Assembly (NCBI RefSeq): GCF_900103785.1
Contig: NZ_FNHE01000017.1
Coordinates: 1-64,000, forward strand
Length of the DNA stretch: 64,000 bases
Source of the DNA: Geodermatophilus siccatus
GTDB lineage: Bacteria > Actinomycetota > Actinomycetes > Mycobacteriales > Geodermatophilaceae
Reading direction: 5' to 3'
Part shown: one piece after another, positions 18,125 to 22,233 of the stretch
How the letters are laid out: each line of letters starts with the position of its first letter
How positions within the stretch are numbered: position 1 is the first letter of the stretch
Notes under the pieces: model-generated
What the model saw: only the letters and a program-made list of their open reading frames with translations
The model's database searches: none
What the model was told of the DNA's origin: nothing
Translations under genes and position numbers: made by a program

Positions 18125-20272
18125 TCAGGGGCTCGTGAGGACGACGAGTCGCTGGGTGGCCCGGGTCATCGCGACGTAGCGGTCGACCGCTCCCTCGATG
18201 CCCTCGCCGAAGGCCTGGGGGTCGACGAGGACGACGAGGTCGAACTCGAGCCCCTTCGCCAGCTCCGGGCTCAGCGACCGGACGCGCGGCCTCTCCGCGA
18301 CCGTGGGGTCGCCGATGACGCAGGCGGTCCCCTCGGGGTGCGCGGCGAGCCAGGTGTCCAGCACCGCGCCCAGCCCGGAGGTGGACCCGTGGACGACGGG
18401 GACGCCGGTGCTGCGGATGGACGTCGGCACGTTGGCGTCCGGGAGCACGGCCCGGATGACCGGCTCGGCCTCCGCCATGACCTCCGCCGGCGTCCGGTAG
18501 TTGACGGTCAGGGAGGCCAGGGTGACGTCGTCGAGCCCGATCCGTGCGAGCCGCTCCCGCCACGACTCCGGGAACCCGTGCCGCGCCTGCGCGCGGTCGC
18601 CGACGATGGTGAGGCTCCGCGACGGGCAGCGGCGCAGCAGCACCTGCCACTCCGCGTCGGTCAGCTCCTGGGCCTCGTCCACGACGACGTGCGCGAACGG
18701 GCCGGCGAGCGCGTCCCGGTCGGCGGTGGGCAGGGCGGCGTCGTCGACCAGGGCGTCCTGCAGGTCCTGGTGGCGCAGGCTCGTCATCAGCAGCAGCTCG
18801 GAGTCGTCGGCCGCGATCAGCTCGTCGATGACGCCGGCCATGCGCTCGCGTTCGGCGGCGACCACGGCGTCCTGCCGGCGCTTCCGCCGCGACGCCCCCG
18901 GGTCGCCGAGCCGCTGCCGGGCCGCGTCCAGCAGCGGCAGGTCCGACACCGTCCAGGCCCGGGGATCCCCACGCTGCAGGGCCCGGACCTCGTGAGGGCT
19001 GAGCCAGGGCGCGCACCTCCGCAGGTAGGCCGGCACGGACCACAGGTCCCCGACGAGGTCGGTCGCCTCCAGCAGCGGCCAGGCGCGCTCGAACGCCGTG
19101 CGCAGCTCCCGGTCCCGCGCCAGCGCGCTGCGGACGACGTCGTCGTCCACCTCGCCGTCGTGCGCGTCCACCACGATCGACAGCAGCGCCTCCCACACCT
19201 GCTCGCGCGCCTCGTTGTGCGGCGTCCCGGGTTCGCGGGCGTCGAACGCCTCGGCCCAGTCGTCGGGACCGAGCTCCACGTCGGACCAGGGGGTCTCGAC
19301 CGTGATCCCCTCGCGGGGCGGCTCCTCGTGGAACCGGACGGCCGCCTCGATCGCCGTCCCCATCTCCGCGGACGACTTCAGGCGGGCCACCTCCGGGTCG
19401 GCCTCCACGCCGGCGGCGGCTCCTTCCGGGACGAGGTCGCGCAGCGTGCAGGTGAGCACGCCCTCCTCGCCGAGGCTGGGGAGGACGTCCGCGACGTAGG
19501 AGAGGTAGGGCTGGTGCGGACCGACGAACAGCACGCCGCCCCGGTGGTGCCCGAGGCGCGGGTCGGAGTACAGGAGGTAGGCGGTGCGGTGCAGCGCCAC
19601 GACGGTCTTCCCCGTGCCCGGACCGCCGTCGACGACGAGGGCGCCGCGGGACCCCGCGCGGATGATGGCGTCCTGGTCGGCCTGGATGGTGCCGAGCACG
19701 TCCCGCATCCGGGGTGACCGGCTGCTGCCCAGGCTGGCGATGAAGGCGGATTGGTCGTCGAGCGCGGCGGCGTGCCCGTCGAACCCGTCGGCGGTGAACA
19801 CCTCGTCCCAGTAGTCGGTGATCCGGCCGCGGGTCCAGCGGTACCTGCGGCGGCTGACCAGACCCATCGGGTCGGCGTGGGTCGCTCCGAAGAACGGCTC
19901 GGCCGCGGGGGAGCGCCAGTCCACCAGCAGCCGACGGCCCGTGCTGTCCGTGAGACCGAGCCGTCCGACGTACACGGGCTCGGGGTCGTCCGTGCGAACG
20001 ACGTGCCCCAGGCACAGGTCCAGGCCGAAGCGGCGCAGGGCGCGCAGGCGGGCGGTCAGCCGGTGGACCTCCAGGTCCCGGTCCAGCGCCGCCTGGCCGG
20101 TGCCGCCGGGCGCCCTGCGCTCGGCGTCGAGGCGGTCGGACAGGTCGGCGATCGACCGCTGGAGGCTCTCCGCGACGGCCGTGAAGTGCTGCTCGTCACC
20201 GGCGATCAGCGTGGGGTCGGCCTTGGGGGACCGGTCGGGGAGGGCGAACACGCTGGTGGTCAGAGAGGTCAC
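18125..20272 (-). CDS. helR: RNA polymerase recycling motor ATPase HelR
   Basis: This 715-residue UvrD-like SF1 ATPase of the HelD/HelR group begins with the characteristic TTSVFALPDRSPKADPTLIA. It contains LLVDWRSPAAEPFFGATH, Walker A GGPGTGKT and motif II DEAQE. HelR binds RNA polymerase, removes stalled or rifamycin-blocked enzyme from DNA and confers rifamycin tolerance in Streptomyces. The GTG at 20272 follows GGAGC. The 19-bp palindrome of the rifamycin-associated element lies 113-131 bases upstream, supporting both the identity and antibiotic-responsive control. Confidence 0.93.
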   Translation of the reverse strand: MTSLTTSVFALPDRSPKADPTLIAGDEQHFTAVAESLQRSIADLSDRLDAERRAPGGTGQAALDRDLEVHRLTARLRALRRFGLDLCLGHVVRTDDPEPVYVGRLGLTDSTGRRLLVDWRSPAAEPFFGATHADPMGLVSRRRYRWTRGRITDYWDEVFTADGFDGHAAALDDQSAFIASLGSSRSPRMRDVLGTIQADQDAIIRAGSRGALVVDGGPGTGKTVVALHRTAYLLYSDPRLGHHRGGVLFVGPHQPYLSYVADVLPSLGEEGVLTCTLRDLVPEGAAAGVEADPEVARLKSSAEMGTAIEAAVRFHEEPPREGITVETPWSDVELGPDDWAEAFDAREPGTPHNEAREQVWEALLSIVVDAHDGEVDDDVVRSALARDRELRTAFERAWPLLEATDLVGDLWSVPAYLRRCAPWLSPHEVRALQRGDPRAWTVSDLPLLDAARQRLGDPGASRRKRRQDAVVAAERERMAGVIDELIAADDSELLLMTSLRHQDLQDALVDDAALPTADRDALAGPFAHVVVDEAQELTDAEWQVLLRRCPSRSLTIVGDRAQARHGFPESWRERLARIGLDDVTLASLTVNYRTPAEVMAEAEPVIRAVLPDANVPTSIRSTGVPVVHGSTSGLGAVLDTWLAAHPEGTACVIGDPTVAERPRVRSLSPELAKGLEFDLVVLVDPQAFGEGIEGAVDRYVAMTRATQRLVVLTSP

Positions 20273-20384
20273 GTCAGCTCCGATCGGATTCCCCCGCGAC
20301 TCGTGGGTCGACGACGGCACAGGCACCTCGCGACTCCCGTTCCCGCAGGTCCGGGCCTCGGCCGGCGATTCTCCGGCCCGTCCC

Positions 20385-20403
20385 GGGTCTTGCCGCAAGT
20401 CCC
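20385..20403. promoter_or_regulatory. Rifamycin-associated element (RAE) upstream of helR
   Basis: The 19-bp imperfect palindrome GGGTCTTGCCGCAAGTCCC (minus strand GGGACTTGCGGCAAGACCC) matches the known RAE type, with its CTTGC-GCAAG core. RAEs precede rifamycin-resistance genes, including helR and rph, across actinobacteria and mediate rifamycin induction. It lies just upstream of helR, which supports function. Confidence 0.85.
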
Positions 20404-20450
20404 CCCGCGCGCTATACGTTGGTGTGGAGGGACATGACCTGCCCCGCCTC

Positions 20451-21245
20451 TCAGGCGAGCGCCTGCTGCAGCACGTCGACGTTGTCGAGGTACCAGCGGC
20501 GCGTCCGTTCGGCCCGTCGCATCGCCCCGCCGGCCAGGTACTCCGAGAAGGCGGGGTGGCCGTTCGCGGCCGCCGTCCCGACGATGTCGTACAGCCACTG
20601 GTGGTTGTGCAGGACCGCGGGGACGAGGGCCTCCCGGTCACCCCGGTCCAGGCCGTAGCTGTCCGCGAAGAGCCGGAGGCGGTCGAGCGCCCGGCCGCGC
20701 CTGCTGTCGTCGATGTAGCGGTCCGGCCGCAGCGGGGCCCACAGTCGCGTGGCACAGGCGACGTCCCACACCCGGCAGCCCGGGCTGGCGAGGTCGAAGT
20801 CGATCAGCGCGACGGCCCGCCCGTCGCGGAAGACGACGTTGTCCAGGTTGACGTCGTTGTGGCTGATGAGCTGCCCGGCGAAGGGTGGGGGCGGCGACGG
20901 CGGCCACAGGTGCGGCACCGGGGAGAAGGTGCTGACCGCCCGGTGGTAGTCGCGCAGCAGGTGGGCGACGCTGACGAGCGCCTCGTCGCTGAGGGCCCAG
21001 GCGGGGTAGGGCGGCGTGATGGCCGTCCCGGGGACGTAGGAGAGGACCTCCCGCCCCTGCTCGTCCACGCCGAGGAACCGGGGAGCGCCGTCGAACCCGA
21101 CGTCGGCGAGGTGGCGCAGCAGGGCGTGGGTGGCCGGACTCGTGGCGCGCTGGGGCCGCCGGACGGTGTCGCCGACGCGCACCACCTGTCCGCGGTTGGC
21201 GGTGCCGCCCAGGAGGAGGACCTCGGACTCGGTCTCGCCCGGCAT
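20451..21245 (-). CDS. APH family phosphotransferase
   Basis: This 264-residue aminoglycoside/choline-kinase-fold protein has the catalytic loop ISHNDVNLDNVV and the metal motif LIDFDLA, both complete, so it is expected to be active. Its substrate is unknown; true aminoglycoside resistance is only one possibility. GAGGAGG lies four bases before the ATG at 21245. It lies upstream of helR on the same strand, with the RAE between them. Confidence 0.85.
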   Translation of the reverse strand: MPGETESEVLLLGGTANRGQVVRVGDTVRRPQRATSPATHALLRHLADVGFDGAPRFLGVDEQGREVLSYVPGTAITPPYPAWALSDEALVSVAHLLRDYHRAVSTFSPVPHLWPPSPPPPFAGQLISHNDVNLDNVVFRDGRAVALIDFDLASPGCRVWDVACATRLWAPLRPDRYIDDSRRGRALDRLRLFADSYGLDRGDREALVPAVLHNHQWLYDIVGTAAANGHPAFSEYLAGGAMRRAERTRRWYLDNVDVLQQALA

Positions 21246-21285
21246 CGGCCTCCTCAGGTCGTCCACGGCCGGTCGGCGCAGGCGC

Positions 21286-22233
21286 TCACTCCTCGAGGAC
21301 GGCGTGGGCCAGGGCCGTGTGCGTCACGATGCCACCGATGAGCCCGCTGCGGAGCGCGGCGCGGACGGCGGGGCTCTTCGACTCGCCGTAGGGGACGACG
21401 ACCACCTCGGGGATGGCCCGCATCTGCTCCGCGTCGATGCCGATCATCCGCTCGGACAGCTCCGTCCGGATCGCCTCGCCCTCGGCCGAGAGGAAGACGC
21501 CGGACACGTCGGCGCAGACCCCCAGGCGGTGCAGTGCCGCGCGGTCGTCCTCGGACAGGGCGTCGTACAGGGTGGACTGGCCGGGCTTCCAGAGACCGAC
21601 CCCGGCCACGGCCTTGGTCACGAGGGGCAGCTGGGCGAAGGCGCGCGCCACCTCGGGCTGACGCCGGAGAGCCCGCGCGGTGGCCGCGTCGGGGACCGTG
21701 AAGGGCGCGTAGAAGACGTGCGCCGCGCCGCCCGATGCGCTGGCCACCTCCCGGACGACGTCCACCGACGTGTCGGGTCCGTCCGGCAGCGAGAGCGCCC
21801 CGGTGAGCTGGACGACCGGGGTCCCGGGCAGTGGCGGCAGCGCCCGGGCCATCGCGCTCACCGCCCGGGCCCACGCCAGACCGAGCACGTCCTGCGGCGT
21901 GATGATCTCCGCGAGCAGCCGGGCCGCCGCCCGCCCGAGGTGCCCCCGGAGCGAGTCGGCGTCGTCGTCGGGCGTGTCGATGACGACCGAGTGCTGCAAC
22001 CCGAACCGGTCCTGCAGCCGCGCGGACAGGTCGACGTCGATCTCGCCCTGGTGGCGGATCTCGATGCGCACCAGCCCGCTCGCGCGGGCCGCGTCGAGCA
22101 GCCGGGCGACCTTGAAGCGGCTCAGGCCGAACTCCTCGGCGATCTCGACCTTCGACCGGCCGTCGAGGTAGTACCGGCGTGCGACGGATGCGGTGAGGAC
22201 GACCCGGGCCGGGCCGTCGTGCGCCTCTGCCAT
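21286..22233 (-). CDS. SorC/DeoR-type sugar-binding transcriptional regulator
   Basis: This 315-residue protein has an N-terminal helix-turn-helix (SKVEIAEEFGLSRFKVARLL) and a C-terminal SorC sugar-phosphate-binding domain with the typical GVGLWKPG and VSGVFLSAEGE segments. It diverges from the polyol transport operon and is expected to control it in response to a phosphorylated or free polyol. AGGAG lies six bases before its ATG. Palindromes that look like its operators lie at 22244 and 22340. Confidence 0.9.
   Translation of the reverse strand: MAEAHDGPARVVLTASVARRYYLDGRSKVEIAEEFGLSRFKVARLLDAARASGLVRIEIRHQGEIDVDLSARLQDRFGLQHSVVIDTPDDDADSLRGHLGRAAARLLAEIITPQDVLGLAWARAVSAMARALPPLPGTPVVQLTGALSLPDGPDTSVDVVREVASASGGAAHVFYAPFTVPDAATARALRRQPEVARAFAQLPLVTKAVAGVGLWKPGQSTLYDALSEDDRAALHRLGVCADVSGVFLSAEGEAIRTELSERMIGIDAEQMRAIPEVVVVPYGESKSPAVRAALRSGLIGGIVTHTALAHAVLEE

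Follow-up and report, generated by a model that had tools for sequence, protein, structure and literature searches.

The window, a stretch of 64,000 nucleotides of the Geodermatophilus siccatus genome, contains a helR gene on the minus strand, a rifamycin-associated element (RAE) upstream of it, and an APH-like gene beyond the element (Table 1). The helR reading frame begins with a GTG at position 20272, an in-frame start that fits HelR, and a Shine-Dalgarno-like sequence precedes it. The sequence GATCGGAGC recurs upstream of helR in relatives.

Table 1. Features of the helR upstream region, and the element that replaces the RAE at other helR loci.
Feature	Position	Strand	Basis or remark
helR, 715 aa, RNA polymerase recycling ATPase HelR	18125-20272	minus	NF041254, 1281.3 bits
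Shine-Dalgarno-like GGAG	20278-20281	minus	read from sequence
Predicted transcription start (+/-2)	20361	minus	seven bases past last T of -10 box
Predicted -10 box GAGAAT of helR promoter	20368-20373	minus	21-26 bases from palindrome centre
RAE palindrome	20385-20403, centre 20394		read from sequence
Far-side box, CCAACGTATAGCGCG on helR strand	20408-20422		AnnnT at mirrored distance in relatives
APH-like gene (PF01636)	20451-21266	minus, same strand as helR	upstream of RAE
Second palindrome in place of RAE (other loci)	52-66 bases before helR		L002, L008, L017, L029, L042, L246, L257, L260, L267, L268, L279, L282, L284, L299, L308, L310, L312

The preliminary description of this DNA spoke of a textbook helR, and the protein bears this out. 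It matches the NCBIfam model NF041254 over the full length of the model (positions 1-706 of 706), and its 1281.3 bits are far above the cut-off of 750. The nearest solved structure is M. smegmatis HelD (6yxu and others, E 6e-102), along which the HelR sequence aligns. The HelR profile has seven matches in this genome, one of them above the cut-off. The 400 bases preceding the best other HelD paralogue of the genome (L043) contain no RAE core.

The APH-like kinase gene had also been pointed out earlier. It is real and lies upstream on the same strand, but it does not belong to the RAE unit. The gene runs in the direction of the RAE and stops short of it, at 20451, which places it outside RAE control. 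A homologue is found near helR at just 1 of the 41 other loci searched (the window's own copy excluded). It is therefore evidently an incidental neighbour of helR, and its candidacy as part of the RAE unit was ruled out on this count. Farther upstream, positions 21286-22233 of the minus strand encode a SorC/DeoR-type sugar-binding regulator, unrelated to helR. The plus strand from 22385 onwards, divergent from this regulator, reads like an ABC sugar transporter.

The palindrome reads GGGTCTTGCCGCAAGTCCC on the plus strand and GGGACTTGCGGCAAGACCC on the helR strand, where more Gs stand 5' of it. Eight of its nine arm pairs are complementary; T faces T six bases from the centre, at a position that is also variable among the 83 non-redundant sites analysed below. 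The sequence agrees with the 19-bp RAE claimed here earlier and has the features that define the element, namely a 19-base palindrome, the core CTTGCSGCAAG and G/C arms. It lies upstream of a rifamycin-resistance gene and reads towards it, with 112 bases (113 in the preliminary description) between the palindrome and the GTG.

A single copy of the core is present in the 5.2-Mb genome, which leaves no second gene here with an exact RAE; a reversed control pattern is found at two places. Shuffling predicts 0.59 matches to the bare 11-base core in the 64,000-nt window when up to one mismatch is allowed. The significance of the bare core was therefore dropped as proof, since chance alone yields it at near this rate. 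Rather, the case against chance is built on position and conservation, as judged by sequence comparison.

On the helR side, the predicted -10 box is separated from TTGCGG in the palindrome by 19 bases. The box, whose A and T stand at +22 and +26 from the centre, would put the RAE palindrome at the -35 position of the predicted promoter, in line with the overlap between an RAE and the -35 of a promoter described for mycobacteria (PMC10719064). Transcription would start about 90 bases before the GTG, giving a leader of about 90 bases. A downstream transcription start, which was previously thought to make the palindrome irrelevant, would not do so, because the start predicted here is downstream and has the palindrome at its -35. 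The earlier account overlooked this placement as well as the two boxes that flank the palindrome. The second of these, the far-side box, contains TACGTT on the plus strand (20415-20420), a TAnnnT facing away from helR. It too is separated by 19 bases from a hexamer of the palindrome, TTGCCG.

The RAE is widely retained at helR. The window's own genome and 60 relatives from the genus, family and order (61 genomes) contain 41 helR loci, and at 34 of these the core, allowing one mismatch, lies no more than 400 bases from the start. The distance from the core to the helR start ranges from 37 to 327 bases across these 34 loci. When they are stacked on the palindrome centre, A at +22 and T at +26 on the helR side, and T at -22 and A at -26 on the far side, are each present at 34/34. 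These flank positions outside the palindrome are as invariant as those inside it. A wider set, covering the order and picked by protein (HelR) and not by palindrome, holds 122 regions upstream of helR. It comprises 108 of the 117 HelR matches above cut-off plus 14 from the 61-genome set; the other nine matches, partial, at contig ends or simply not included, were left out (G345, G485, G515, G519, G525, G577, G582, G637, G661). An RAE is found in 95 of the 122. The gene-side AnnnT is present at all 95 of these RAE loci and the far-side AnnnT at 94. Across the phylum, the 17-base RAE pattern is present in 34 of 396 genomes. The preliminary description had taken this locus to extend the RAE-HelR pairing to the lineage. 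The pairing is indeed general there, but RAE-helR pairs were already known from several actinobacterial genera, according to the available text of PMC8655204.

The same arrangement recurs before other rifamycin-resistance genes. A search of public genomes for GGNCTTGCSGCAAGNCC gave at least 149 matches, which are all those present in L044-L191 and include the window's own site (L166); matches in records named for other phyla were kept, and 118 of the stretches searched are a sample of a larger number. Target genes were assigned by tblastn, and the match had to sit within 700 bases upstream of the gene. Among the matches listed, 113 precede a homologue of HelR (43), Rox (44), Rph (10), Rgt (8) or Arr (8). 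Cluster representatives of HelR (HelD_MYCSM/HelR_2), Rph and Arr score above the NCBIfam cut-offs; those of Rox and Rgt match the rifampin monooxygenase and Rgt models, under their cut-offs. Both AnnnT boxes stand at the exact distance in 109 of the 113 gene-linked matches among those listed, and in 109/109 of these the CAGAAT-type box is the one that faces the gene. The other 36 among the matches listed have both boxes (6), one box (2) or neither (28). Five of the six unlinked two-box matches lie within about 250 bases of an end of the stretch examined, and one precedes an MFS transporter. Among 18 further sites, 17 combine both boxes with one of the five genes and one has neither. The centre base of the palindrome was considered as the polarity signal and rejected, as it is C and not G in 21 of the 109 gene-linked sites and the boxes still point to the gene.

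Kinship remains in part in every count given here, including the set of 83 non-redundant sites, which was obtained from the 113 by a 75% flank-identity filter. Among the matches listed, 81 of the 83 sites before the five gene families have the gene-side AnnnT at the exact distance, and at any other offset it occurs in at most 19. The far-side AnnnT is present in 80 of the 83, and one other offset (28) reaches 40, again among the matches listed. In antisense, the far-side box of the sites listed conforms to TAnnTT (T1 in 81, A2 in 81 and T6 in 80 of 83). As a sense -10 it is disfavoured, for it lacks T1 (C in 74 of 83). The far-side box is a fixed part of the module, and it may be an antisense promoter or a second contact site. 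The core and the GGG/CCC arms vary less than a -35 hexamer requires, both at the 34 loci, where the core alone is forced, and at the 83 sites among the matches listed, where the search pattern imposes part of the invariance. The far-side genes of 115 RAEs group into families of at most three members, so the element has no regulator gene as a constant companion. Judged by these alignments, the RAE is the centre of a polar, strictly spaced module of about 60-75 bp.

Several sites depart from the common pattern. In Actinoplanes aureus (L066:121-1797), a two-box RAE module precedes an MFS multidrug-type transporter gene (family by reading), outside the five target families. Three RAEs before rox lie on contigs assigned outside Actinomycetota; both boxes are intact in two MAGs named Gemmatimonadaceae (L078, L080) and degenerate in Bradyrhizobium macuxiense (L119). 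Before helR at L289 and L303, TATAAC and CAGAATC/CACAATC boxes are kept, by eye about 18 bases further apart and with other sequence between them, perhaps a third promoter variant.

A different palindrome takes the place of the RAE at part of the remaining helR loci. Among the 27 loci that lack the RAE core, 17 carry TC[A/G]TGA 35-150 bases before the start. At 17/17 of these a TAnnnT stands at +21 to +26 from the TC[A/G]TGA axis and at no other offset, a count made without TAnnnT in the search pattern. The hexamer is also found in 5 of the 95 RAE loci, with the TAnnnT box at none of the five. In its typical form the second element reads TTGTAGCAG, then CTCATGAG, then CTAAGGTC, the end also being CTAnGGTC. 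It contains no TTG, and its far-side box, TnnT[AC]GCAG, is not a -10. A longer pattern with at most one mismatch has seven matches in the 61 genomes, six at helR and the seventh (G009) elsewhere. When the second pattern was sought at other target genes, the matches outside helR resembled those of the reversed control, and no wider regulon is therefore claimed for it. The presence of a second palindrome at the same place, with TAnnnT at 17/17, fits the palindrome as an exchangeable operator.

RAE and second palindrome are interspersed on a quick HelR tree of 82 rows, which contains many open forks and one doubtful long-branch join. On this quick tree the second palindrome requires 14 changes (shuffled mean 15.7; at least 4 forced by well-supported branches), so the two elements were exchanged repeatedly. 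Two RAE loci, L014 and L249, contain a decayed second element exactly 53 bases before helR, downstream of the RAE and without its -10. The decayed copies score 14.0 and 20.7, compared with -6.9 for the highest shuffled control, and look like promoter replacements caught in progress. Three of the 16 searched genomes with the second palindrome at helR have two-box RAE modules elsewhere, located before rox in G023, before two arr-like genes in G503, and with no recognised target gene close by in G036 (L371 position 1506). Both elements can therefore live in one cell. In addition, helR lies directly behind rgt at L028, L280, L290 and L311 and directly behind rox at L245, and at these five loci seems to form an apparent operon with the rifamycin-inactivating gene.

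What the DNA itself shows is a palindrome with two boxes at fixed spacing, a polarity towards the gene, and the replacement of one palindrome by another. These features are probably best explained by a rifamycin-inducible helR promoter whose -35 is covered by the operator of a putative dimeric protein. RNA polymerase with the housekeeping sigma factor would start near 20361 by means of the -10 box. Between the palindrome, which would lie over the -35, and the -10 box the 19-base spacer is unusually long, for which reason basal firing should be weak. A putative dimeric protein, encoded elsewhere, would most likely bind the palindrome and let the promoter react once RNA polymerase is occupied by rifamycin. 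The cell would then make HelR, which would clear the rifamycin-stalled polymerase. A protein dimer is favoured because a -35 alone would not require such constancy of arms and core. With its centre about 33 bases ahead of the predicted start, the palindrome occupies the site of sigma region 4, which speaks more for a repressor than for a classical activator. The operator model is weakened on this count, and also because a simple operator would not need a mirrored far-side box and because no binding protein was found and no regulator gene lies beside the RAE; we know of no RAE-binding protein. Rifamycin-induced expression of helR, as forecast in the preliminary description, is a sound prediction by analogy with published RAE-helR pairs (PMC10719064, PMC8655204). 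In M. abscessus, removal of half of the RAE is reported to abolish induction (PMC10719064, available text). The genes that rifampicin induces most in M. smegmatis, independently of SigB, include rox, arr and the helR gene MSMEG_2174, according to the accessible part of PMC6529629.

The far-side box is central to a rival explanation, in which the switch would be intrinsic to RNA polymerase. The palindrome would represent two overlapping, back-to-back -35 elements, and the far-side box would serve as -10 to a divergent promoter in antisense whose spacer is likewise 19 bases long. Polymerase could sit in either direction, and low rifamycin would tip it towards helR without a dedicated regulator. 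Such an arrangement would be consistent with AnnnT at exactly mirrored distance on either side of the palindrome and with the far-side box having the -10 bases in antisense and lacking T1 in sense. No gene family uses the antisense side, so the box would be kept for its own sake. A two-promoter system that senses rifampicin, with a 19-base spacer in its antisense promoter, is described as proven for B. subtilis helD in the available text of PMC12802891, but there the promoters converge, with starts 39 bp apart, whereas the pair here would be divergent and overlapping. Moreover, AnnnT is self-complementary, so the motif does not prove the strand, and a rifamycin-stalled antisense polymerase would be expected to block helR rather than free it. 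The antisense-promoter reading is further lowered because the second palindrome lacks both TTG and an antisense -10. A polymerase-intrinsic switch is thus conceivable but doubtful.

Two other explanations fare worse. Control at the RNA level, with a transcript from an upstream promoter carrying the RAE as a leader hairpin (attenuation), has a precedent in the upstream promoter P1 of M. smegmatis, which has the RAE in its leader (PMC10719064, available text), and the palindrome is able to form a stem. Attenuation is nevertheless very improbable here, as the fixed spacing to the gene-side -10 and the mirrored box are promoter-like and not leader-like, and the distance from RAE to start varies between 37 and 327. 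That the RAE is a chance palindrome without a role, with helR driven from elsewhere, would accord with the roughly 0.6 bare-core matches expected per window at one mismatch and with the absence of the core at 7 of 41 related helR loci. Against such an accident, position and flanking boxes are kept at 94 of 95 helR loci, and polarity and boxes are common to five unrelated gene families, so that chance is scarcely credible. The module as defined here names the bases to change, in the gene-side box, the far-side box and the palindrome arms, and changing them would separate the two main models. Rifamycin-response genes can also be sought with it precisely, and through the second palindrome nature offers a test of whether the signal is set by the palindrome.

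The locus is that of a genuine RAE before a genuine helR. What is added here is the full module, the rule on its polarity, and the swapping of the RAE for a second palindrome. The protein resembles HelR and the class II HelD proteins (M. smegmatis HelD, S. venezuelae HelR) in its full-length match to NF041254 and its homology to the M. smegmatis HelD structures. With respect to the mycobacterial HelD branch represented by NF041258 and NF041465, it scores 437 and 401 bits, under both cut-offs, and belongs to the NF041254 branch. The element shares with the RAEs of helR, rox, rph, rgt and arr the 19-base palindrome, the core, the place before a resistance gene and the overlap with a -35, as reported for promoter P2 of M. 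smegmatis in the available text of PMC10719064. Published descriptions, in the parts available, cover the palindrome itself and, for mycobacteria, a pair of sense promoters; the far-side box, the fixed distance in five families and the polarity rule are absent from them, and the primary papers (Spanogiannopoulos 2014, Surette 2022, Hurst-Hess 2022) may describe more. A literature search, with the primary RAE and HelR papers outside its scope, found no text describing boxes or an antisense promoter at the RAE, nor one describing another palindrome at helR.

The mechanism by which the RAE senses rifamycin was said in 2026 to remain to be elucidated (PMC12802891, available text). According to the same text, B. 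subtilis helD senses rifampicin by promoter interference, and shortening the helD/pps alarm by 17 bp kills the response. A bolder and rather improbable proposal is that RNA polymerase itself is the rifamycin sensor, acting through a two-sided promoter with the RAE as its common centre, much as an actinobacterial counterpart of the B. subtilis alarm, and that the second palindromic promoter, repeatedly exchanged for the RAE, makes two independent sensing routes to helR. The two systems have in common a HelD-type gene, a long 19-base spacer and a possible antisense promoter. However, the sense and antisense promoters of B. subtilis are convergent, and its authors set the RAE apart in the text available, whereas the boxes here lie on either side of the palindrome and, if both are promoters, would be divergent and fire apart.
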